A stretch of 10,310 nucleotides of DNA from Deltaproteobacteria bacterium (GTDB lineage: Bacteria > Myxococcota > B64-G9). Position 1 is the stretch's first letter. Every line of letters begins with the position of its first letter. The translations under genes were made by a program, and so were the position numbers. Of the stretch, positions 1 to 10,310 are shown one piece after another. The notes under the pieces are model-generated. The model worked only from the letters and a program-made list of their open reading frames with translations. It was not told the DNA's origin and ran no database searches. The stretch spans positions 1 to 10,310 of the forward strand of contig JAUVAM010000058.1 in assembly GCA_030591745.1 (NCBI GenBank). Reading direction: 5' to 3'.

Positions 1-78
1 TCGAATCGCCGTCACCTCAGGTTTGATGCCTCGTTCTTTTCTTGCCTGCTTCATTTCTTCCATGCTTGCCTTGCTCAC
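1..78 (-). CDS. N-terminal fragment of an unidentified protein, last visible gene of the Hdr operon
   Basis: Only the first 26 codons lie in the window. The GTG start at 78-76 overlaps the TGA at 77-75 that closes the frame of the preceding HdrA-like gene (GTGA overlap), and a GGGAG ribosome-binding site sits 6 bases upstream. A second possible start is the ATG at 63-61, with AAGG 5 bases before it. The visible peptide is charged and lysine-rich and shows no motif. The overlap means the gene was translationally coupled to the full-length HdrA frame. Because an in-frame TAA at 233-231 now ends that frame early, ribosomes would have to reinitiate at this site. By position it could be another Hdr-associated subunit (for example MvhD-type), but nothing in the 26 residues proves this. 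Confidence 0.6.
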   Translation of the reverse strand, partial: MSKASMEEMKQARKERGIKPEVTAIR

Positions 79-230
79 GCTTGTCTCCCGGCTTCCTCGG
101 TCAAGCCATCCACCAAGGAGTAAAGTTGCTCTAAGGTGCTGCCGACTACGTCAATGGCCTGATGAGGACAAACCGCGACGCAAGCGCCGCAACCTTTGCA
201 AAGCACGGAATTGACCACGGCGATTTTGGC
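75..230 (-). pseudogene. Detached C-terminal ferredoxin half of the HdrA-like protein, downstream of an in-frame TAA
   Basis: Directly after the TAA at 233-231, the same frame runs on for 51 codons to TGA (77-75). It encodes a classic [4Fe-4S] motif CKGCGACVAVCP (four Cys, then Pro) followed by HQAID and a helical tail with YSLVDGL. HdrA proteins typically end in just this way: a second ferredoxin motif, then a helix. The upstream HdrA-like protein ends in the middle of a two-cluster ferredoxin domain, so this is its missing half. The coding character continues without a frameshift. No convincing start of its own is visible: candidate GTG codons follow the stop, but the nearest purine-rich stretch (AAGGG before the TAA) is too far away. 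It is either a nonsense-mutation remnant, a consequence of a sequencing error, or a rare split or readthrough product. Confidence 0.75.
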
Positions 231-2105
231 TTATTCGCCCTTGTTTTCCACATCTTCCAAATAGAGGTCACCATCATAACCGCATTGCTCGACACACAGG
301 CCTTCACCCTGGCAGCGCGTAGCGTCCACCCTGGCGACGAAGGGGTCCAGTTTGATGGAAGAGCGGGTGAGGATGCGAGAGGCCTTGGCCGCGGCTGCAC
401 AGGCAGCTGCGGCGACTTCGTCGGTGTTCATGGGGGCTTGAGCCGTACCGGCCACCATGACCCCGGCCACGGAAAGCTCGACGGGTCGGAGCTTGGGGTG
501 GACTTCGAGCAGAAAGCCGTCCTGGCCGATGGGTAGCTTCATCAAATTGACGATTTCTCCAGGATCGCCTGGTTCCATGGCGGAAGAAAGGACGATCAGG
601 TCGGCTGGAACCGCGATCTCTTGTCCATTGCTGAGCTGATCGGCAAAGGTCACGGTGAGTCGCGATTCCCCGTCGCTTTGCTGGATTTTGGGGATTTCAT
701 AGTCCGAGTATTTCAAAAACACGACCCGGTTGCGGGAGGCTTTTTCGAAGCACTCTTCGTATAAGCCGTAGGATCGGATGTCTCTGTATATTTCAAAGAC
801 ATTCACATCCGAGAAGCGTTCACGGATTTCGGTTGTTGCATGCAGGGTGGCCGAGCAACAAACTCGACTGCAATAGGTGCGGAGGGGGCGATCAGGACCG
901 GGATTGTGCACGCCGTCGATCTCACGACTGCCGACACAGTGAATCATGGCGACGTTGGCGATGCTCTTTCCATCGATGACCAATTCGCCGGCATCGGGAT
1001 CCATCTTGTCGAGCAGGCGAACAAACTGGGCCAGGGTGATGACACCCTCCATGGTCCCGTAACCGAATTCTCCCTCGTAGGGCACATAGGGTTTGAAACC
1101 CGTGGCCATGATGATGCAGCCGGCATTTACCTCGACTTTGTGCGGTTTTTCGTCAAAGTCCACCAGGTTTTCGCCAAGGATCTCTTCGCATTTTTCGCAG
1201 CGGGTGCAGTGCTGTATGTCGATGACCGGAACGGCCGGCACGCATCCTGGATAAGCCAAGTGAATGGCTTTGGTTTGGTCCAAGCCGTAGTCAAATTCGT
1301 CGGGAATCCTGACGGGACAGGCGGCCTGAATCTTTTCCCATTGCTCGGATGACAAGGGTCCCTGCACATACCGTGGGTCTACCTCCACCTCGACTTTGAA
1401 ATTTCCGAAATAGCCATCCACGGCTTTGACATGGGCTTGGGTGATTACTTCTACCAGGGGAGATTCGACCACATGGGAGATGAGCGGCTTGAGGAGGTCG
1501 CGGGCGTTTTCCTCGCTTGGGAAAAGTTTTTCCAGTTGCGCGACGTGTCCACCCAGGAAGGGACTGCGCTCCAGCAGCGTGACCTGAATGCCCTGCTCGG
1601 AGAGGTTTTTTGCCGTTTGCAGTCCAGCCAAGCCGCCTCCAATCACCAGGGCCTTTTTAACCACTTTGACTTGAATGTGTTCCGTGGAAATCAGCAGGCG
1701 AGCTTTGTTGACGGCCGCTTGAACCAGGCGGGTGGCTTTTTGGGTGGCACCCACGGGGTTGCCCGCGTGAACCCAACTCACCTGCTCTCGAATGTTGACG
1801 TGTTCGTAAAGGAAGGGATTGAGTCCGGCTCTTTCCAGTGTTTTGCGAAATGTTATCTCATGCAGCGACGGTGAACAGGATGCGATGATCACCCGGTCCA
1901 GGCCGTTTTTGTTGATGTCTTCGATGATCAATTCCTGGGCCGGATCGGAACACATGAAAGAATGCTCGCGGCTGATGACCACATTGGGCAATTCGGCGGC
2001 CGCGGCCACTACCTGCGCGCAATTCACCACGTCGGAGATGTTGCCGCCGCATTGACAAATGTAGACGCCGATTCGGCAGTCTTTTTGGGGGCTCGTGTCT
2101 GGCAT
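231..2105 (-). CDS. Long HdrA-like FAD/iron-sulfur protein, C-terminally interrupted
   Basis: This is a 624-residue HdrA-family flavoprotein, the electron-splitting hub of heterodisulfide-reductase complexes. Residues 10-80 form the HdrA N-terminal domain (CQCGGNI at 17-23, MCSDPAQ, ASCSPSLHE at 76-83). The FAD-binding GGGLAG is at 156-161 and YCSRVCC, the conserved HdrA cysteine trio, is at 411-417. Several other sites have decayed. The usual FPxxDC site reads FPSEEN (195-200). The first inserted ferredoxin motif keeps one Cys (263). The second has three (300, 303, 306) with Leu at 310. The C-terminal ferredoxin begins at Cys598 but has Glu601 in place of the second Cys. The frame stops at a TAA inside that domain; 51 further in-frame codons would give about 675 residues. 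The ATG at 2105 lies one base after the stop of the upstream HdrA gene, with AGAGG 9 bases before it. It probably pairs with that neighbour, in the manner of QmoA/QmoB. Confidence 0.88.
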   Translation of the reverse strand: MPDTSPQKDCRIGVYICQCGGNISDVVNCAQVVAAAAELPNVVISREHSFMCSDPAQELIIEDINKNGLDRVIIASCSPSLHEITFRKTLERAGLNPFLYEHVNIREQVSWVHAGNPVGATQKATRLVQAAVNKARLLISTEHIQVKVVKKALVIGGGLAGLQTAKNLSEQGIQVTLLERSPFLGGHVAQLEKLFPSEENARDLLKPLISHVVESPLVEVITQAHVKAVDGYFGNFKVEVEVDPRYVQGPLSSEQWEKIQAACPVRIPDEFDYGLDQTKAIHLAYPGCVPAVPVIDIQHCTRCEKCEEILGENLVDFDEKPHKVEVNAGCIIMATGFKPYVPYEGEFGYGTMEGVITLAQFVRLLDKMDPDAGELVIDGKSIANVAMIHCVGSREIDGVHNPGPDRPLRTYCSRVCCSATLHATTEIRERFSDVNVFEIYRDIRSYGLYEECFEKASRNRVVFLKYSDYEIPKIQQSDGESRLTVTFADQLSNGQEIAVPADLIVLSSAMEPGDPGEIVNLMKLPIGQDGFLLEVHPKLRPVELSVAGVMVAGTAQAPMNTDEVAAAACAAAAKASRILTRSSIKLDPFVARVDATRCQGEGLCVEQCGYDGDLYLEDVENKGE

Positions 2106-2106
2106 G

Positions 2107-3423
2107 CTAGGAAACCTCTGTGGATTGGATCCAACCGGTGGAATTCAGATAGGCCGAAGCTTGAGCCGCGGCGGCACCGGCCTCGACGATGGTGTCCACG
2201 ATGTCCTTGGGGCCTGCGGCCGTACCGGCCACAAATACCCCCGCCATGGTGGTGGCCGTGGGCTCTCGTTTTTTCTTGGGCACATCGACAAAGTCATAGG
2301 ATTCGGTGGTGACGGGGAGGATTTCCTTCGGATTCCACGCAGGGAGCATGCCCTGAGACAAGACCACCAGATCGTGCTTGTCCTCAACGACCTCTCCTCC
2401 CTCTTCCTTGCGCTCAACTCGAATGATGGGGTTGTGGTCGTCGTCTTCAGAAATGGAGGCGACTTTGCCGCAAACGAACTGGAGGCCCATGGCCTTGGCG
2501 TCCTGGTAGAAGGTTTCAAAGCCTTTCCCGAAGGCGCGGACGTCCATGTAGTAGATGGTGACATCAGCCAAGGGCAATGAGCCCGCAAGAAGAATGGCCT
2601 GTTTGATGGCGTACATGCAGCAAACACGAGAACAGTAGGGGACGTCCATGCTGATATCCCTGGAGCCCGCACATTGGACATAGGCGATGGAGTCCGGGAT
2701 TCTTCCATCCGATGGCCTGAGCACCTTGCCATAGGGGCCGTGAGGGGCGATGAGTCGCTCCATCAAGAGTGGATTGATCACATTGGGGAGTTTCTCGGCC
2801 CCATAGCGCTTCACCGAATCCATGGGTGTCAATTTGTAGCCAGTCGCCATCACGATGGCCCCGGCGCGAACATCGATGACTTCCGGACCTTGAGAGAAGT
2901 GAATCGCATCGGTGGGACAGGCTTTGATGCAACGCCCACAGAAAATGCAGTTGTCAATATCGATCAACGCGCACTGAGGATAGGCGTTGGAGTGGGGTAT
3001 GTACGCCGCCCTGCGGGCACCTTGGCCGCTTTCGAAGGCATCGGGCAATTGCACGGGGCAGACGTATTCGCATAGCCTGCAGCCGATGCAATCTTTTTCG
3101 ACCACGTAGCGGGGTTTTTGCCTGACCTTGACCTGGAAACCACTCGGACCTTTTTCCGCTTGATCGAGTTCGGCATAGGTCATGATTTCGATGTTGTCGT
3201 GGTGGGCCGCTTCGGCCATCTTGGGTGTCGTGATGCAACTGGAGCAATCCAGGGTGGGAAAGACCTTGCTCAAGCCGATCATTTTGCCACCGATGGATGT
3301 GTCCTGTTCGACGACCAGGACTTTCAGATCCCGATCCGCCAGATCCACCGCGGCCTGCAAGCCCCCGATGCCTCCGCCTAAGACCAAGACATCCACAACC
3401 TTCGTATTGTGATTTTCGCTCAT
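2107..3423 (-). CDS. hdrA: Short HdrA/QmoA-like FAD and iron-sulfur protein
   Basis: This 438-residue HdrA-family protein lacks the long N-terminal domain of full HdrA and so resembles QmoA in size. It has the FAD dinucleotide-binding GGGIGG at 16-21, a second flavin motif GGKMIG, the HdrA signature TLDCSSC (Cys60, Cys63), two complete inserted [4Fe-4S] motifs (Cys112/115/118/122 and Cys159/162/165/169, each followed by Pro), MATG at 192-195 and YCSRVCC at 263-269. All expected cofactor ligands are present, unlike in the downstream paralogue. The likely role is flavin-based electron transfer between iron-sulfur partners, possibly bifurcating; donor and acceptor are not shown by the sequence. 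The ATG at 3423 is preferred over the GTG at 3435 because GGAG lies 6 bases before it. It sits 20 bases after the MvhD-like gene and one base before the next gene, so co-translation is likely. Confidence 0.93.
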   Translation of the reverse strand: MSENHNTKVVDVLVLGGGIGGLQAAVDLADRDLKVLVVEQDTSIGGKMIGLSKVFPTLDCSSCITTPKMAEAAHHDNIEIMTYAELDQAEKGPSGFQVKVRQKPRYVVEKDCIGCRLCEYVCPVQLPDAFESGQGARRAAYIPHSNAYPQCALIDIDNCIFCGRCIKACPTDAIHFSQGPEVIDVRAGAIVMATGYKLTPMDSVKRYGAEKLPNVINPLLMERLIAPHGPYGKVLRPSDGRIPDSIAYVQCAGSRDISMDVPYCSRVCCMYAIKQAILLAGSLPLADVTIYYMDVRAFGKGFETFYQDAKAMGLQFVCGKVASISEDDDHNPIIRVERKEEGGEVVEDKHDLVVLSQGMLPAWNPKEILPVTTESYDFVDVPKKKREPTATTMAGVFVAGTAAGPKDIVDTIVEAGAAAAQASAYLNSTGWIQSTEVS

Positions 3424-3443
3424 TGGCTTCTCCACTTGCAGCC

Positions 3444-3884
3444 TTAGATCTTGGCGACCTCTACCTTGCTGGAATCCACGGTACCGATCTCTGCCAGCAC
3501 TTTCGTCATGTTTTTGATTTCTTTAAGGAAAGATGCGCTACAGACTGTGCAGATGGCGCATAGCTTGATTCGCCGTACGTCGATTTCTTGTGCGATGAGG
3601 TCTTTTGCCAGCGCATCCAGTCTGCTGGCCAATTTCTCGTAAGTCCCGGCGAATGGACATTCAGCGCCGGAGCTCATCACGATGATGCCATCGAAGCCCT
3701 TTTTCAGGCAGTACAGATAGAATCGTTTGGGCAGGATGACCGGATCGGGCACCCGGATGATGGAGGTGTTGTCAGCGTATGTCAGATGCGCCTGACCCAC
3801 CGTATCCGCGCCGGGATATGACGAATCTGCTGTTGTGATCAGCAAAATTTTTGGCGACTTTTCTGAATTCGATGCGAGATTCAT
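3444..3884 (-). CDS. MvhD/FlpD-like subunit with altered cysteine pattern
   Basis: This 146-residue protein has the layout of the MvhD (FlpD, hydrogenase iron-sulfur subunit) family, a small [2Fe-2S] protein that passes electrons to HdrA. The fold signature SYPGAD (22-27), RVPDP (44-48), a GFDGIIVMSSGAEC segment (63-76) and its position beside hdrA support the call. Most family cluster ligands are absent: the usual CxxC before SYxGAD is replaced by Thr18 and Ser21, the Cys before R-V-x-P is gone, and only Cys76 remains of the second pair. Three new cysteines appear as CAICTVC at 109-115, in a region normally rich in small and aromatic residues. It may bind a different cluster, carry a thiol function or be structural. 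The ATG at 3884 follows a perfect AGGAGG (3896-3891) by 6 bases; the upstream GTG directly abuts that site and is unlikely to be used. Confidence 0.8.
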   Translation of the reverse strand: MNLASNSEKSPKILLITTADSSYPGADTVGQAHLTYADNTSIIRVPDPVILPKRFYLYCLKKGFDGIIVMSSGAECPFAGTYEKLASRLDALAKDLIAQEIDVRRIKLCAICTVCSASFLKEIKNMTKVLAEIGTVDSSKVEVAKI

Positions 3885-3890
3885 TCGCAC

Positions 3891-3896
3891 CCTCCT
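3891..3896 (-). promoter_or_regulatory. Shine-Dalgarno AGGAGG of the MvhD-like gene
   Basis: A perfect AGGAGG is followed by six bases (GTGCGA) and then ATG at 3884. This decides the start in favour of the ATG over the in-frame GTG at 3890, which would have no spacer. Confidence 0.85.
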
Positions 3897-3905
3897 AAGG
3901 TCTTG

Positions 3906-4160
3906 CTACTTTTTGCGCCGGATAAAAATACGGTCGTAAGTCTCGCCTTCGGCTGTCCCCATGTACTCGTGTCCCACCTTCTTGGCCCAGAGAGGCAGGT
4001 CTCTTTTGGTGCTTGCGTCACCCGACATCACTTCCAGTATGCCGTTGACAGGCACCCCGCCGATGCCCTTTTTGGCTTCGAGCAGGGGACCGGGGCAGGC
4101 TGAACCTCTGGCGTCGATGGTTTTGTTGATTTCGAGTCCTTCCGGGTTGAAGTCAGACAT
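3906..4160 (-). CDS. tusA: TusA-family sulfur carrier protein
   Basis: This 84-residue protein is of typical TusA/SirA length. It carries the family's active-site motif: Cys22-Pro23-Gly24-Pro25, preceded by the usual D-x-R-G (TIDARGSACPGP) and followed by an LLEAKKGI helix, then ILEVMSGD and the ending D-R-I-F-I-R. TusA proteins carry sulfur as a persulfide on this Cys. Members act in tRNA thiolation, in molybdenum/tungsten cofactor metabolism and, next to Hdr-like genes, in dissimilatory sulfur transfer. The start ATG is preceded by GGGAG at 6 bases; this site overlaps the stop codon of the HdrC/D-like gene only 12 bases upstream. Its place inside the hdr operon suggests that it either hands sulfur to the Hdr-like complex or supports the cofactor of the nearby AOR-family enzyme. 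No DsrE, rhodanese or lipoate-binding protein gene is seen in the window. Confidence 0.93.
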   Translation of the reverse strand: MSDFNPEGLEINKTIDARGSACPGPLLEAKKGIGGVPVNGILEVMSGDASTKRDLPLWAKKVGHEYMGTAEGETYDRIFIRRKK

Positions 4161-4172
4161 GGTAAGCTCCCT

Positions 4173-5351
4173 TTAGGTGGTTTTGTCGGGCTGGACCGAA
4201 TTGGCGTCAGCCAGGCTTTCCAGAAGCAATTCCGCAATATCCATCACCTGCAAGCGCTCATCGACTTGCAGGCTTTTGATGCTGTCTCGGAACATGGAGT
4301 TGCAATAGGGGCAAGCAGTGACCAGGGTGTCCGCGCCGGTTTCTAAGGCTTCTTGGACGCGAAGGTTGGCAAAACGTTCGTCTACGCCTCTTTCCATGAA
4401 AATTTGGGCCCCGCCGCCGCCACAGCAAACGCTTTCTTCCCGATTCCGTCCCATTTCCACCAGATTCAGTCCGGGAATGCTCTGCAGCACTTGTCGCGGT
4501 TCCTCATAGATGTCGTTGTGTCGCCCGAGGTAGCAGGGATCGTGGTAGGTCACCGTGCGATTCACGGGTTTTGTGGGTACAAGCTCACCTTTTTCCAGAA
4601 GCGTGTGAAGGATTTGGCTGTAATGCTTGACTTCGTATTCTCCACCCCATTTTGCGTAATCCTTAATAAACGCATTGTAGCAATGGGGCGAGGAAGTGAT
4701 GATCTGTCGGGTGCCTGCTTTCTCGAAATGCTGGACATTGTCTCGTCCCATCCGCTCGGACAGCTCCATGGCGCCGGATTCCCTGACGGAACATCCACAG
4801 CAGACCGAATCAAGCGGGGAGAGCCACATGGGAAAGTTCGCTGCTTGTAAGACTTGCACCAGGGCTTTGGCGCTGCGTCTTGTCTCCGAGTCATAACTCT
4901 GGATGCAACAGGCATAAAGCATCCATGCATCCGCGGGACCGGAGTCAGCCAGGTCCAGGTCTTTTGCCCAATCATTTCGTTCGTCGGCTTCACCGGCCCA
5001 GGGATTGCCGTTTTGACCTTGACTGGCAAGCATGGCACGCAGGGTGGACGGCTGGGACCCACCGGAGCCGGTCATCGAACGCATGGATCGCGTGACGTCG
5101 ATGATGGGGACCTCGCGGGGGCAGTTGTCTACGCAGTAACCACAAGTGGCGCAGCGCCAAAGGTCGCCTGTGTCTTCCGGCTCGAGGCCAAGCTGTGCCG
5201 TGCGCATGAGCATGCGAACATTCAGGGTGGTGTTGGCCAAATTCCAGGGGCAGAGACCGGTGCAGGTGCCACATCCAATGCACAAGTTGAGACCTTCTCC
5301 GCCGGTTTCCACCAGCAGATCGGGGACCTCCAAGAAAGGAACCATTTCCAT
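4173..5351 (-). CDS. HdrC-HdrB/D fusion iron-sulfur protein (BamD/HdrD-like)
   Basis: This 392-residue protein joins an HdrC-type double ferredoxin to an HdrB/HdrD-type pair of CCG domains. The two [4Fe-4S] motifs are Cys24/27/30/34 and Cys67/70/73/77. The second CCG domain is textbook: Cys273, Cys309-Cys310 in VCCGGGG, and Cys347-x2-Cys350. The first has Cys149 and Cys184-Cys185 in VCCGC, but its final CxxC reads SPHC (Ser221, Cys224), so one ligand is missing. CCG domains hold the noncubane [4Fe-4S] clusters that reduce disulfides in HdrB; related proteins (GlpC, LutA, BamD) use them for electron transfer. No membrane segment is seen, so it is probably cytoplasmic. The start is the ATG at 5351, 7 bases after AGGAGG; the frame stays open upstream to a TTG at 5381 with no such signal. 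It is the first gene of the operon. Confidence 0.93.
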   Translation of the reverse strand: MEMVPFLEVPDLLVETGGEGLNLCIGCGTCTGLCPWNLANTTLNVRMLMRTAQLGLEPEDTGDLWRCATCGYCVDNCPREVPIIDVTRSMRSMTGSGGSQPSTLRAMLASQGQNGNPWAGEADERNDWAKDLDLADSGPADAWMLYACCIQSYDSETRRSAKALVQVLQAANFPMWLSPLDSVCCGCSVRESGAMELSERMGRDNVQHFEKAGTRQIITSSPHCYNAFIKDYAKWGGEYEVKHYSQILHTLLEKGELVPTKPVNRTVTYHDPCYLGRHNDIYEEPRQVLQSIPGLNLVEMGRNREESVCCGGGGAQIFMERGVDERFANLRVQEALETGADTLVTACPYCNSMFRDSIKSLQVDERLQVMDIAELLLESLADANSVQPDKTT

Positions 5352-5358
5352 CACTGAA

Positions 5359-5364
5359 CCTCCT
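5359..5364 (-). promoter_or_regulatory. Shine-Dalgarno AGGAGG of the HdrC/D-like gene
   Basis: A perfect AGGAGG is followed by 7 bases and ATG at 5351. It fixes the start of the first operon gene and excludes the TTG further upstream. Confidence 0.85.
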
Positions 5365-5384
5365 GCCCGGAAATTGCGCAAAAC

Positions 5385-5410
5385 CAGACTTCTGAAAATC
5401 CAGAAGTCTG
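5385..5410. repeat. Perfect 10-bp inverted repeat, candidate operator or leader hairpin
   Basis: CAGACTTCTG (5385-5394) and CAGAAGTCTG (5401-5410) are exact reverse complements separated by 6 bases. The repeat lies in the gap between the GAF-domain gene and the hdr operon, and its upstream arm overlaps the last two bases of the candidate -10 box (5414-5409). That position suits a repressor operator. As RNA it would be the first thing transcribed and would fold into a hairpin close to the 5' end, about 20 bases before the ribosome-binding site. There is only a short GTTTTG run after it on the minus strand, so a strong intrinsic terminator for the upstream gene is less likely. Confidence 0.7.
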
Positions 5411-5437
5411 AATAGGTAGAATTGAGTGAATTGTCAA
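5409..5437 (-). promoter_or_regulatory. Candidate sigma70-type promoter of the hdr operon
   Basis: On the minus strand a consensus -35 TTGACA (5437-5432) is followed by exactly 17 bases and TATTCA (5414-5409), which matches the -10 consensus at three of six positions. Transcription would begin near 5403, inside the inverted repeat, giving a leader of roughly 50 bases before the ATG at 5351. The -35 box and spacing are excellent and the -10 is weak, which fits a promoter that needs activation or is controlled through the adjoining repeat. Some readthrough from the upstream GAF-domain gene is also possible. Confidence 0.55.
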
Positions 5438-5458
5438 CCGCAAAGAGCGGATTTATTT

Positions 5459-6784
5459 TTATTGGGGGCTGGCAACGGGCCGCATGGCTTCGGCCGTTGT
5501 GGAGATTTTGGCAGCGGCCAGGGTTTGCCCGGCTTGGCGCGCGAAGATGATCAAGGTCTGGAATTCGTTTTCACTGATGATGCCGAATTGGCTTGAGCGG
5601 TCGATGCCCAACACGCCCAGGACTTCCCCTCGGTAGGTCATGGGTGCCAGGGCGAAGGGATTCATGCCGATGCGTCGCGCAAGTTCTTCATTGATGCCAT
5701 CGGTGGCGGTCGGATGGGTCACGTTGATGGCTTGGTTTTCCACGGCGCATTTGGCCGTCAGACTGTCGTCGGCTTTTAGGGCCATGGTGACCCGCATGGG
5801 CTGGCGGTCGACTTCCGGGATGCGCTCGTGATAGGCAAGCCGGCGTAAGCGAAGCTGTTTTTCTTCGACCACGTACATCAGGGTCCGATCCACCTTCAGT
5901 TCGTTAACCAGTACGTCGCAGATGCGATCCAGCACGGCGTCCATCCCCGTACGATGTTGCAAGACTTCGCCCACCTGGTAGAGCATGCCGAAGAGTTCCG
6001 CCTGGTGTTCGAGATTGGCGTTGCTGGCCTTGAGTTCGCGGGTCTTGCGGTGCACCTGTCGAATAAGAAAACCGCTGGAACCGGCCACGGCCACGAAGGC
6101 GAAGAGGTTGACGACCATCATGAGCACGATGTAGCTCCAGCGCTGGGCGAATTGGTCCAGCGCCACGAAGTAGCTGACGTGGGGGATGACACCGGAGCTG
6201 TCCAAGACCACGATAACCATGTACGTGGCGGCCGATATGCCCGCCATGCCCATGCCCGCGCCGGGTCCCACCAGGATGGAAGAGCCGATGATGGGCAAGA
6301 AGTACAGGAAGCCCAAGGGGCTGGTGACGGCACCGGTTCGCCAGATGTAGGCGCTGAAGATCACCACGTCCAGAGCCAGTTGCAAAAAAACGAATTTCTT
6401 GAGGTTCAGGCTGCGTTTTTTGAGCGCCCAAAAATAGACCAGGTTCAAGCCAATGGAGATGGCTCCTGTGATGGCCGTGGAGAACAGGGTCTCCCGACTT
6501 AAGGTGGATGCCCCCCGGGTCAGCCCCTGCCAGTTGGTCAGGAGCATGAGCAGGACGATGCCCGGGTTGACGGCAAAACGAATGCGGATGATCCAGGCGA
6601 TTTTCTTTTTCAGCTCTTCCGCGGAGTCGCTCAGGTCGAAGTCGATCTCGAAAATGCGCATGGGCAAGGCCACGGCATGATCCAGCTTGGCGGCCAGGTA
6701 GGCCACCGGTCGCGAGGTGCTCGATTTCTCGGTCGGGATCGGGACTTCTGATTCTTCTTTGGGTTTGGCCTCTTCGGCGCTCAT
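5459..6784 (-). CDS. Six-helix membrane protein with C-terminal GAF domain
   Basis: Counted from the ATG at 6784, the protein has 441 residues. A polar, acidic N-terminus (about 1-60) is followed by six hydrophobic segments at roughly 65-85, 100-121, 131-148, 156-173, 177-194 and 217-241. A charged helical linker (242-276) leads to a GAF domain (277-426), with the typical start MDAVLDRICDVLVNELKVDR and the late motif APMTYRGEVLGVLGID. The layout matches the input half of PilS/NtrB-like membrane histidine kinases, but it ends after GAF with no kinase, cyclase or phosphatase module. It may bind a small ligand and signal through a partner. The frame is open to an ATG at 6841, but that start has no ribosome-binding site; a weak AGG 9 bases before 6784 and the more natural MSAEEAK start favour 6784. 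Its start remains uncertain. Confidence 0.82.
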   Translation of the reverse strand: MSAEEAKPKEESEVPIPTEKSSTSRPVAYLAAKLDHAVALPMRIFEIDFDLSDSAEELKKKIAWIIRIRFAVNPGIVLLMLLTNWQGLTRGASTLSRETLFSTAITGAISIGLNLVYFWALKKRSLNLKKFVFLQLALDVVIFSAYIWRTGAVTSPLGFLYFLPIIGSSILVGPGAGMGMAGISAATYMVIVVLDSSGVIPHVSYFVALDQFAQRWSYIVLMMVVNLFAFVAVAGSSGFLIRQVHRKTRELKASNANLEHQAELFGMLYQVGEVLQHRTGMDAVLDRICDVLVNELKVDRTLMYVVEEKQLRLRRLAYHERIPEVDRQPMRVTMALKADDSLTAKCAVENQAINVTHPTATDGINEELARRIGMNPFALAPMTYRGEVLGVLGIDRSSQFGIISENEFQTLIIFARQAGQTLAAAKISTTAEAMRPVASPQ

Positions 6785-6791
6785 GGGCGTC

Positions 6792-6820
6792 AGCCTATGC
6801 AGGCAAAGCCTGCCTGTCAA
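6792..6820 (-). promoter_or_regulatory. Candidate promoter of the GAF-domain gene
   Basis: On the minus strand TTGACA (6820-6815) is followed by 17 bases and TAGGCT (6797-6792), a weak -10 with three of six matches. Transcription would start at or just before the ATG at 6784, implying a leaderless or nearly leaderless message, and would exclude translation from the ATG at 6841. The alternative is that this is a chance match inside the coding region and the true promoter lies above 6841. Confidence 0.35.
6799..6813. repeat. Short palindrome GCAGGC-AAA-GCCTGC
   Basis: This is a perfect 6-bp inverted repeat with a 3-base centre. It lies wholly within the 17-base spacer of the candidate minus-strand promoter and about 28 bases from the -35 box of the divergent plus-strand promoter. 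The position would suit an operator acting on the GAF-domain gene. It is short enough to arise by chance. Confidence 0.4.
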
Positions 6821-6840
6821 TTCCGCCATTAATTCGGACA

Positions 6841-6869
6841 TTGACAGCGGAGGGATGACTTTCTAAACT
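6841..6869 (+). promoter_or_regulatory. Sigma70-type promoter of the Hsp70/J-domain genes
   Basis: A consensus -35 TTGACA (6841-6846), an exact 17-base spacer and TAAACT (6864-6869, four of six matches to TATAAT) point to a start near 6876 and a leader of about 30 bases before the GTG at 6906. It is a housekeeping-type promoter; I see no sigma32-like boxes and no CIRCE repeat, so heat-shock control is not evident despite the Hsp70 product. Confidence 0.65.
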
Positions 6870-6894
6870 CATGCGATTGTCTTATGAAAACTTT

Positions 6895-6899
6895 GGAGG
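6895..6899 (+). promoter_or_regulatory. Shine-Dalgarno GGAGG of the Hsp70 gene
   Basis: GGAGG lies 6 bases before the GTG at 6906 and supports that non-ATG start, which gives the expected Hsp70 N-terminus (VIGIDLGTS). Confidence 0.85.
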
Positions 6900-6905
6900 A
6901 ATATC

Positions 6906-8474
6906 GTGCCGGAACCTGTCATTGGAATCGATTTGGGCACTTCGTACTCATGCGTGTCCATCATGATGGAAGGTCAACCAGAGGTCATCCCAAACGAATG
7001 GGGGGAGAGGACTCAGGCATCCGTGGTGTCCTTTCTGGATGATGGCCGTATTCAGGTGGGCAATGACGCCAAGCGGCGTCTTTTGACGCATCCTCGCCAG
7101 ACTGTTTACTCGGCCAAGCGGCTCATCGGTCGCTATATGTTTTCGCCCGAGGTTAAGAAAGCCCAGGCGGTTTGTCCCTATGAGATCGTGGAAGGCGACA
7201 ATCACGGTGTGCGCATCCAGGTTCGGGGCGAGGTCCTGAGTCTGCCCCAGGTCTCGGCCCTGATCTTGAAAGAGATGAGAGAGATCGCCGAGGCCTACCT
7301 GGACATGCCGGTGGAGAAGGCCGTCATCACGGTGCCGGCCTACTTCAATGACAACCAGCGCCAAGCCACGGCCGACGCCGGCCGCATCGCGGGTTTGGAT
7401 GTTCTGCGCATCATCAACGAGCCCACGGCCGCTGCTTTGGCCTACGGGTTCGGTAAGAGCCTGGACGAGCGGGTGGCCATTTACGATTTGGGCGGTGGTA
7501 CCTTTGATATTTCGATCATGGAAATCGGGGATGATACCTTCGAGGTGCTGTCCACCGCCGGGGATACCTACCTGGGCGGCGATGACATGGACATGCGGCT
7601 GATGGACTACTTCGCCGACTTGTTCATGCAGCAGACCGACATCAATCTGCGCAACGACGTAGCCGCTTTGCAGCGTTTGCGCGAGGTCAGCGAAGAGACC
7701 AAGAAGGCCTTCAGTCAGCGGAAGAAGGTCAAAGTTAACGTGCCCGAGGTTTACACCGATGAAAAGGGGCAGGTTTACGATTTCGAAACCGTCATCGACC
7801 ACAACACCTTCCAGCAGTTGATCATGGATTTGATCCAACGGTCCTTCAAGGTTTGCGACGAGGCCTTGCAGTCGGCTGGACTATCGGTGGGCGACTTGGA
7901 CGGCGTCATCCTGGTCGGTGGGCCAACCAGGCTGCCATTGATCCGCGAGGGTGTGCTGGCTTACTTCGGCAAGGAGCCCTTGGCTGGTATCGATCCGGAC
8001 GAGGTGGTGGCCATGGGCGCGGCCATTCAGGGCGCGGCTCTGGTGGACGAGTCCCAGAATGCCTTCCTTTTGGACGTGACGCCTTTGACTCTGAGACTGG
8101 GCACGGTGGGCGGGTACTCCGAGCAGGTCATCGCCCGAAATACGCCTGTGCCCATCGATCGGACACGCAGCTTCACCACCAGTCGAGACAACCAGGAGTT
8201 GGTCAAGATTCGGATTTTTCAGGGTGAGTCAAATCGTTCGGAAGAGTGCGAGATGTTGGGCGAGTTTGAGTTTTCCGGTTTTCGGGTGGCACCTCGTGGA
8301 GAAGTGCAGATCGAGGTGACCTTTGAGATCGACGCCAACGGCATCCTGCAAGTCTCTGCGGCTGACCCGGAAACGGGTCAGGTGGCCTCGACTCAAGTCA
8401 GCTTGTCCAGCGGGTTGAGCGAGTCCGAGATCCAGCGAAACATGGAGCAAGTGGCCGAAGCGGAGCTTGTCTAA
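6906..8474 (+). CDS. Lidless Hsp70 (DnaK-like) chaperone
   Basis: This 522-residue Hsp70 has a complete nucleotide-binding domain: IGIDLGTSYS at the start, TVPAYFND and INEPTAAALAYG in the middle, the phosphate loop DLGGGTFDIS, and VILVGGPTRLP late in the domain. The interdomain linker LLDVTPLTL is at about 388-396, with Arg397 where DnaK usually has Gly. The beta substrate-binding domain follows to about 508. The protein ends 14 residues after SGLSESEIQ, where the helical lid of DnaK (about 638 residues) would begin, so the lid is missing. No lid-coding sequence remains in any frame: only 33 bases separate it from the next gene. It should be an ATP-driven chaperone that releases clients faster than DnaK or works on specific folded partners. 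The downstream J-domain gene is its obvious co-chaperone. It is probably not the housekeeping DnaK. Confidence 0.93.
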   Translation: MPEPVIGIDLGTSYSCVSIMMEGQPEVIPNEWGERTQASVVSFLDDGRIQVGNDAKRRLLTHPRQTVYSAKRLIGRYMFSPEVKKAQAVCPYEIVEGDNHGVRIQVRGEVLSLPQVSALILKEMREIAEAYLDMPVEKAVITVPAYFNDNQRQATADAGRIAGLDVLRIINEPTAAALAYGFGKSLDERVAIYDLGGGTFDISIMEIGDDTFEVLSTAGDTYLGGDDMDMRLMDYFADLFMQQTDINLRNDVAALQRLREVSEETKKAFSQRKKVKVNVPEVYTDEKGQVYDFETVIDHNTFQQLIMDLIQRSFKVCDEALQSAGLSVGDLDGVILVGGPTRLPLIREGVLAYFGKEPLAGIDPDEVVAMGAAIQGAALVDESQNAFLLDVTPLTLRLGTVGGYSEQVIARNTPVPIDRTRSFTTSRDNQELVKIRIFQGESNRSEECEMLGEFEFSGFRVAPRGEVQIEVTFEIDANGILQVSAADPETGQVASTQVSLSSGLSESEIQRNMEQVAEAELV

Positions 8475-8493
8475 ACTTTTTGATTCCACCGAG

Positions 8494-8498
8494 TGAGG
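8494..8498 (+). promoter_or_regulatory. Ribosome-binding site deciding the J-domain start
   Basis: The purine-rich TGAGG ends 9 bases before the GTG at 8508. The in-frame GTG at 8493 overlaps this site and has no signal of its own, so 8508 is the better start. Confidence 0.6.
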
Positions 8499-8507
8499 AC
8501 TAGCGCT

Positions 8508-9053
8508 GTGGCAAAACTGGACCCCAAATTTATCGCCCAATGTTTAAAACTAGCCAATGTGTTGGACAAATTCGACTATTACAAATTGTTGCAGGTCGAT
8601 CCCAATGCCAGCATGGGTCAGATTCGCAAGGCCTACCACAAACAATCTCGGACTTTTCATCCTGACCGCTACTACAGCATGGTGGATGAGGATTTTAAGG
8701 AATCGATTTATCGAATCTCAAAGCGGGTGACCGAGGCTTACGTGACCTTGCGCGATTCGGAAAAGCGCAAGTTTTATGATCAGCAGCTTGGCAAGAAGGA
8801 TGACGCAGCGACCCTTCGCTATACTGAAGAAAGTGCCCAGCAGCAGAAAAAGGCCAAGACGGAAGAGATTGGAACCACCGAACAGGGTCGGCGCATGTAT
8901 CAGCAGGGCTTGAAGGAGTTCAAGCGCAAGGATTTCAAGGGGGCCGAGCGTTCTTTCAAGATGGCTTTGGCCTACGAGTCGGGTAACGAACTTTTCAAAA
9001 AAATGGCCGATGAGGCCGGGTCGCAGATCAAAACCGACTACATGATCAAATAA
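8508..9053 (+). CDS. J-domain co-chaperone with TPR-like C-terminus
   Basis: Counted from the GTG at 8508, the protein has 181 residues. A J domain occupies about 22-96, with YYKLLQVDPNAS, the helix-II IRKAYHKQS and the invariant His51-Pro52-Asp53 that stimulates Hsp70 ATPase, then a helix ending in EKRKFYDQQL. A charged Gln/Lys-rich linker (about 97-122) leads to a helical pair with TPR character (about 124-160: QGLKEFKRKDFKGAERSFKM). There is no Gly/Phe-rich region and no zinc-finger domain, so it is not DnaJ or CbpA but a specialised type with its own client- or partner-binding tail. It follows the lidless Hsp70 by 33 bases and is very probably co-transcribed with it and its partner. Confidence 0.92.
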   Translation: MAKLDPKFIAQCLKLANVLDKFDYYKLLQVDPNASMGQIRKAYHKQSRTFHPDRYYSMVDEDFKESIYRISKRVTEAYVTLRDSEKRKFYDQQLGKKDDAATLRYTEESAQQQKKAKTEEIGTTEQGRRMYQQGLKEFKRKDFKGAERSFKMALAYESGNELFKKMADEAGSQIKTDYMIK

Positions 9054-9115
9054 GGCCCGCCAGGTGACCATGCTCCCATTTGGGCAGCACAGGTCCTCGG
9101 GACGGGGGAGGTGTC

Positions 9116-10310
9116 ATGGCAGCAGAAATCGATCAATATGCATTCGTCGTTGACGCTGGAGATGGGGGCCACGAACTGCGCAAATTTCAGGCCCCCGAGG
9201 TCTTGGGGCCTGTGGACTTCGGTCTCAAAATGCAGCGGGAGGGGAACTTCCTGTGCATCGGGGGTGGAATCTTGGCGGGTTCCATCATCCCGGGCTCCAA
9301 CCGACTGATTTTCACGGGGCATTCGCCTGTCTGGGATGGCTTCTATGTGTCGACCATGGGCGGGGCGGCCCTTTTGTGGGATGGCACGGGATTAAATTAT
9401 TTGGCCATCGGGGGCAAAGCCGAAAAGCCCTCCGTGATGGTGCTGTGGGGCGCCAAAGGCAGCCACCCCAAGCTCAAATTGGTTCCGGTTGATTTGGACA
9501 AGCTTTGGGAGGACGACGGCTTCTACGGTTTGCAGCGCTACGCTTTTTCCCATTTGTGGGAAGGGCAAGGCACGCCGCGGGTGCTGGCCGTTGGGCCTTC
9601 TGCACGGGCTTCGGACATGGGGGCCATCGGCTCCGGCAAGACCCGCAAGGGCAAGCTCAGCTATGTGGATTGTTGGGCGGGGCGAGGCGGCTTTGGTTCC
9701 AAAATGCTTCAGCAACACAACATTTGCGCCATTGTCTATGGCGGTGATTTCGATGACGACGATTTGACCGATCGGGCGGAAGCCAACGGCTACTTTGAGA
9801 AGCGTTTTTCCAAGAAGATGAAGCTGGTGGACTTGGAGACCACCACCAAGTACCGATTTGATCCCAAGTGGGGCTCTGGCGGCACTTTTGGAGTGAACTA
9901 TTCCAAACTCACGGACTTGATGTTGTCGTTCAATTATCGTTCGGTGGATTGGGCGCGTGATGATCGTCATGCCATTTGGGAACGCCTGGTGCGCGATCAC
10001 TATCTCAAGCAGTTCAACGAAGAGACCATCGCGAACAAGCAATATGCCAACTGCGGGGAACCCTGTCCGGCCGTGTGTAAGAAGATGAACGGGGATTACA
10101 AGAAGGATTATGAGCCCTATCAGGCCATGGGACCTTTGACCGGTATTTTCGATCAGCGAGCGGCCGAAAAGGTCAATCACCACGCCGATGGTTTGGGTTT
10201 TGACGCCATCCAGATTGGCGGCCAATTGGCCTGGATCATGGAGTGCTTGGCTGACGGTGTCGTCACCGGGGAGCAGCTGGGTTTACCGGCGGGCTGTCCT
10301 GATAAGCCCA
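9116..10310 (+). CDS. Aldehyde:ferredoxin oxidoreductase family enzyme, BamB-like (N-terminal part)
   Basis: The frame is open for 398 codons to the window edge; AOR-family enzymes are about 600-700 residues long, so roughly a third is missing. The N-terminal AOR domain shows IPGSNRLIFTG, VSTMGGAALLWDGTGLNYLAI with GGKAEKP, and the pterin-binding region follows (WAGRGGFGSKMLQQHNICAIVYGG, 187-210). The [4Fe-4S] ligands appear as CGEPCPAVC (Cys313, 317, 321), a CxxxCxxxC spacing rather than the CxxCxxxC of archaeal AOR. QRAAEKVN and GFDAIQIGGQLAW then match the start of the AOR C-terminal domain. Such enzymes carry tungsten or molybdenum on two pterins. Overall it resembles BamB, the catalytic subunit of class II benzoyl-CoA reductase, but substrate cannot be read from this part. 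The ATG at 9116 is preceded by GGGGGAGG at 4 bases. It follows the J-domain gene by 62 bases. Confidence 0.92.
   Translation, partial: MAAEIDQYAFVVDAGDGGHELRKFQAPEVLGPVDFGLKMQREGNFLCIGGGILAGSIIPGSNRLIFTGHSPVWDGFYVSTMGGAALLWDGTGLNYLAIGGKAEKPSVMVLWGAKGSHPKLKLVPVDLDKLWEDDGFYGLQRYAFSHLWEGQGTPRVLAVGPSARASDMGAIGSGKTRKGKLSYVDCWAGRGGFGSKMLQQHNICAIVYGGDFDDDDLTDRAEANGYFEKRFSKKMKLVDLETTTKYRFDPKWGSGGTFGVNYSKLTDLMLSFNYRSVDWARDDRHAIWERLVRDHYLKQFNEETIANKQYANCGEPCPAVCKKMNGDYKKDYEPYQAMGPLTGIFDQRAAEKVNHHADGLGFDAIQIGGQLAWIMECLADGVVTGEQLGLPAGCPDKP

Follow-up and report, generated by a model that had tools for sequence, protein, structure and literature searches.

An in-frame TAA splits the C-terminal ferredoxin domain of an HdrA-like gene in an otherwise healthy bacterial hdr operon

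Here we describe an in-frame TAA codon within the part of an HdrA-like gene that encodes its C-terminal ferredoxin domain, located in a window of 10,310 nucleotides, which is the whole stretch of DNA analysed and probably the whole of its contig. This is an ordinary event, a stop derived by the change of one base in an operon that looks healthy elsewhere, and it is either real and recent or an error. The most likely class of explanation comprises a recent mutation or polymorphism and an error in the assembled sequence, and within this class we favour a recent nonsense allele, in which an ancestral lysine codon was converted to TAA by the change of one base (probability roughly 0.55). We infer that this allele is present in cells. 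Support for a recent allele comes from the intact state of the eight other genes compared, from the constraint on the 51 codons that follow the stop, and from the lysine found at this codon in relatives. Against it, the domain is so conserved that a fixed loss should carry a cost.

The interrupted gene and its neighbours

Several minus-strand genes of the window follow one another in the manner of an operon. These encode, in order, an HdrC-HdrB-like protein of 402 residues with a Fer4 domain and two CCG stretches (4173..5381), a TusA-like protein of 84 residues (3906..4160), an MvhD/FlpD-like protein of 148 residues (3444..3890), a second, shorter HdrA-like protein of 442 residues with a DCSSC motif (2107..3435) and the longer HdrA-like flavoprotein that is interrupted by the stop (234..2105). 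The series continues with the start of a further minus-strand gene (1..78), which is cut by the window end; in the closest relative this gene is complete (L002:900-1187) and encodes 95 residues with no Pfam match. It is followed in the relative by a DsrE-like gene (L002:1223-1582), which together with the TusA-like gene suggests a link to sulfur transfer. A short Hsp70-like gene, a J-domain gene and an AFOR-like gene occupy the plus strand (6906-10309), divergent to the hdr operon. The AFOR-like gene is cut by the window end, and its best NCBIfam model is GAPOR, at a score well below the cut-off. A search for plasmid relatives gave no match.

The longer HdrA-like open reading frame begins with ATG and runs from 2105 to 231, where it is ended after 624 codons by the TAA (233-231). 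Its product carries the N-terminal domain, the FAD domain and the first half of the C-terminal ferredoxin domain. By its N-terminal and FAD domains it belongs to the HdrA family, matching positions 1-592 of the NCBIfam HdrA2 profile (NF040770) with 567.8 bits, a score that does not reach the curated cut-off (1100) for HdrA2 proper. Beyond the TAA the same frame reads AKIAVVNSVLCKGCGACVAVCPHQAIDVVGSTLEQLYSLVDGLTEEAGRQA, a tail of 51 sense codons (230-78) that contains CKGCGACVAVCP, and then meets a TGA (77-75) that shares bases with the GTG start of the next gene (GTGA). Matches to Fer4 (PF00037, 5e-08) and to the corresponding region of three NCBIfam HdrA models (between profile positions 597 and 654) show that the tail is not a chance open reading frame; it supplies the second half of the ferredoxin domain at the C-terminus. 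The first-pass annotation, made from the window alone, had claimed that the TAA splits this domain and had suggested the downstream TGA as the original stop. The frame and its Fer4 match bear out the claim, and the suggestion is upheld by the relative, whose gene ends at that TGA.

The TAA is located in the linker that joins the two cysteine motifs of the domain and precedes all four cysteines of the second motif, so that the complete domain is not encoded in one polypeptide. The first motif, upstream of the stop, has three cysteines (CQGEGLCVEQC) and not four. In the alignment, just 11 of the 119 homologues examined have a cysteine at the missing fourth place, and a first motif with three cysteines is therefore normal for these homologues and no sign of damage.

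Relatives and constraint across the stop

A genome scan gave 13 loci, of which L001 and L002 are contigs of MAG AB_03_Bin_195. Jointly they span window positions 1-9364 at 94.7% and 94.2% DNA identity, which makes this MAG the closest relative found (about 94.5%). A sister bin, AB_03_Bin_172, is listed from Guaymas Basin hydrothermal sediment (PMC10553843), and AB_03_Bin_195 is by its name presumably from the same place. DNA matches that span the stop were found in only two of the 97 genomes searched, this MAG and an outgroup, the Deltaproteobacteria MAG G005, whose orthologous protein (P0002) is 69% identical. Opposite the TAA of the window, L002 has a lysine codon and its gene continues to the TGA; the outgroup has lysine at the same codon. 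A sense codon in both the closest relative and the outgroup, as a recent nonsense allele would leave, indicates that the stop is derived in the window and lies one base away from its ancestor. This agrees with the earlier proposal that a one-base change of a sense codon had made the TAA, and of the lysine, glutamate and glutamine codons then considered it singles out lysine.

The protein search reported 5552 homologues, of which 120 were listed and 119 were examined, the window's own protein (P0001, whose cluster has four member sequences) being left out. All 119 continue past the stop column, with a residue at that column in 118 and a gap in one. Of the four cysteines in the second motif, the first is present in all 119, the second in 118, and the third and fourth in 117 each. 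The exceptions are P0014, in which the second cysteine is changed, P0107, in which the third and fourth are changed, and P0041, in which the third is changed and the protein then ends; none of the three ends where the TAA of the window lies. None of the eight matches at E <= 1e-120 among nine genomes has an internal TAA, and three of the eight have one TGA inside them, that of G005:C278 being the natural end of the gene. A distant HdrA-like match at G007:C377:9574-10272 (36% identity, query 11-245) has one in-frame TAA elsewhere in the protein. Two HdrA paralogues of related genomes, L030 (G005:C86) and L024 (G007:C590), have one in-frame TGA each. That of L030 falls at the equivalent of the conserved Cys197 (DCSA*ILTP), as would be expected of a selenocysteine-containing HdrA, which is a known type. 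For the TAA of the window, selenocysteine was considered and rejected, as the position is never cysteine in the 119 homologues examined; a reassignment of TAA as a sense codon was likewise rejected, since five other genes of the window end in TAA.

The tail has diverged from that of the relative in the manner of a coding sequence. Counted pairwise with this one relative, in which the hdrA-like gene lies partly on L001 and partly on L002, its 51 codons show 12 synonymous and 5 nonsynonymous differences and a dN/dS of 0.105, against 0.116 for the body of the gene. Within the first 32 codons, where the motif lies, there are 7 synonymous and no nonsynonymous differences, whereas the last 19 codons contain 5 of each; the constraint thus sits in the cluster part of the tail and is weak in its last 19 codons. 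When the 17 differences of the tail are polarised with G005, the window branch receives 7 synonymous and 1 nonsynonymous, the branch of the relative receives 2 and 3, and 3 and 1 are unassignable. With an outgroup of 69% identity the polarisation is imprecise (4 of the 17 are ambiguous), and because the outgroup gene terminates a few codons before the tail does, the final codons are polarised against sequence past the stop of that gene. A stretch of the body, treated in the same way, gives 10 and 5 for the window, 12 and 1 for the relative and 7 and 1 unassigned. Had the tail been free along the whole window branch, at most one nonsynonymous change in eight would be met with a chance of about 3e-4, calculated from a plain neutral site ratio that leaves out mutation bias. 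To judge from these counts, the tail looks to have been translated and constrained during most of the time since the lineages parted, as would be the case if the stop is very recent, if it is a consensus error, or if the tail continues to be made.

At synonymous sites the tail differs more from the relative than the rest of the gene does (12/37 versus 58/438, Fisher P 0.006), an excess for which recombination or a local rate effect may be the cause.

Recent allele, sequence error or functional stop

It should be noted that some features of the tail count against a recent nonsense allele. The polarised nonsynonymous changes fall three to the branch of the relative and one to that of the window, and the weak constraint in the last 19 codons (5 and 5) also counts against it.

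The main alternative is that the TAA is an error of consensus or assembly, including a strain chimera, near the end of a metagenome contig, and that cells hold an intact gene for a protein of about 675 residues. We regard this as a serious but clearly less probable account; its weight, like that of the recent allele, is a matter of judgement. It would explain why a single base separates the stop from the sequence of the relative, why the tail is constrained like translated sequence and why the gene and operon show no other damage. The window ends 231 bases from the stop, and coverage is often low at sequence ends. Against an error, every one of the seven further differences in the 32 codons past the stop is synonymous, which indicates that the local consensus is not generally noisy, and the genes compared contain no frameshift and no other nonsense base.

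It is in our estimate very improbable that the stop is functional, the tail being reached by readthrough or reinitiation or translated on its own as a small ferredoxin that supplies the missing half of the domain in trans. The conservation of the tail, with its 7 synonymous and 1 nonsynonymous changes on the window branch, speaks for such an arrangement, as does a GTG codon that starts 12 bases past the stop. However, inspection by eye revealed no Shine-Dalgarno-like sequence at the usual spacing before the GTG and TTG codons in the tail. From 260 to 204 the window is identical to the uninterrupted relative except at two bases, one of them within the stop. TAA is moreover the ordinary terminator of the mvhD, hdrBC, GAF, Hsp70 and J-domain genes, and the relative ends the first three of these at the same positions. 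No stimulatory RNA structure was found after the stop (150-233), where 151 of 200 shuffled sequences fold at least as well (z 0.74). Searching with the 51-residue tail brought up no small-protein homologue, although the method, which requires three 5-residue words in common, has little power with a query of this length. Lastly, the gene is split at this place in none of the 119 homologues examined, and a stop recurs at the homologous place, as recoding would lead one to expect, in none of them either. The earlier suggestion that the two halves are made separately or by readthrough is thus not borne out, and orthologues uniformly ending at this point with the ferredoxin encoded separately, which the first-pass annotation had named as an observation that would overturn its reading, are not seen among these homologues. 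What is left as positive evidence for readthrough or a split gene is the conservation of the tail alone, and from the sequence a recent event would explain this equally well. Slightly less probable still is a version in which both halves of the domain are made in the population through low-level readthrough or reinitiation, such that a mixture of truncated and full-length protein would tune electron entry from the MvhD-like subunit.

Similarly improbable is the idea that the gene or the operon is decaying and that the stop, a nonsense codon within a conserved domain, is one of several lesions: no premature stop or frameshift was found relative to AB_03_Bin_195 in the eight other genes of the window compared (the five on the minus strand and the Hsp70-like, J-domain and AFOR-like genes, the last over its first 95 codons only), and dN/dS, computed for the minus-strand genes, is 0.033-0.127 in the five neighbours and equally low in the body and tail of the interrupted gene. 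Decay of the locus, which had been raised as a possible cause, and of the operon as a whole is therefore unsupported. The three indels relative to L001 are all intergenic. At 8475-8489, between the Hsp70-like and J-domain genes, the window has 15 bases without a counterpart in the relative, and the start of the J-domain open reading frame is doubtful since its first residues differ from those of the relative, which has no GTG there.

Electron entry into a tandem HdrA pair

The recent nonsense allele, if this is what the window carries, would affect a domain with a defined role in a known system. In the structure of HdrABC-MvhADG, electrons from MvhD reach the flavin by way of the HdrA C-terminal ferredoxin domain (PMC9012536). 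With the stop read through, the long copy aligns with the HdrA of HdrABC-MvhAGD (5odc_A) over query positions 9-669 and chain positions 3-650 (E 1.5e-142). It differs from that chain in that Cys197 is aligned with an aspartate, in that its inserted ferredoxin domain has, by alignment, one of the first four cysteines and three of the second four, and in the three cysteines of its first C-terminal motif and the TAA that interrupts the gene.

The short copy matches the HdrA2 profile over positions 129-565 only and thus lacks both the N-terminal domain and the C-terminal ferredoxin domain, which leaves that of the long copy as the only one in the pair. It has the Cys197 equivalent, in FPTLDCSSC, where the long copy, which has the N-terminal domain, has aspartate. 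On these sequence features the two proteins fit the pattern of a tandem complementary pair, of which HdrA 5/6 and 12/13 of ANME archaea are examples (PMC9012536). As in the pairs described there, one copy has the N-terminal domain without Cys197 and the other has the Cys197 equivalent (DCSSC) without the N-terminal domain, and the pair adjoins MvhD- and HdrBC-like genes. Unlike those pairs, the pair of the window lies in a bacterial operon with a TusA-like gene and its long copy has a premature stop. The orthologue of the outgroup (P0002, 671 residues, 69% identical over 99% of the query) likewise has a second HdrA-like match just upstream on the same strand, and it reads through with lysine where the window has TAA.

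According to this comparison, the 624-residue product, lacking the four cysteines of the second motif, would not form a proper two-cluster ferredoxin domain, and by analogy with the solved HdrABC-Mvh complex the truncated complex would probably fail to accept electrons from the MvhD-like subunit. The outcome would be a loss of function, or an allele of a subpopulation that selection will remove. Other HdrA paralogues could partly cover the loss; the genome of the relative, for example, has other HdrA-like genes at 29-44% identity.

As matters stand, the gene should be annotated as interrupted. If the stop is real, it deletes half of the only C-terminal ferredoxin domain in a tandem HdrA pair, and would constitute a natural experiment in which the carriers test the need for that domain in electron entry from the MvhD-like subunit.
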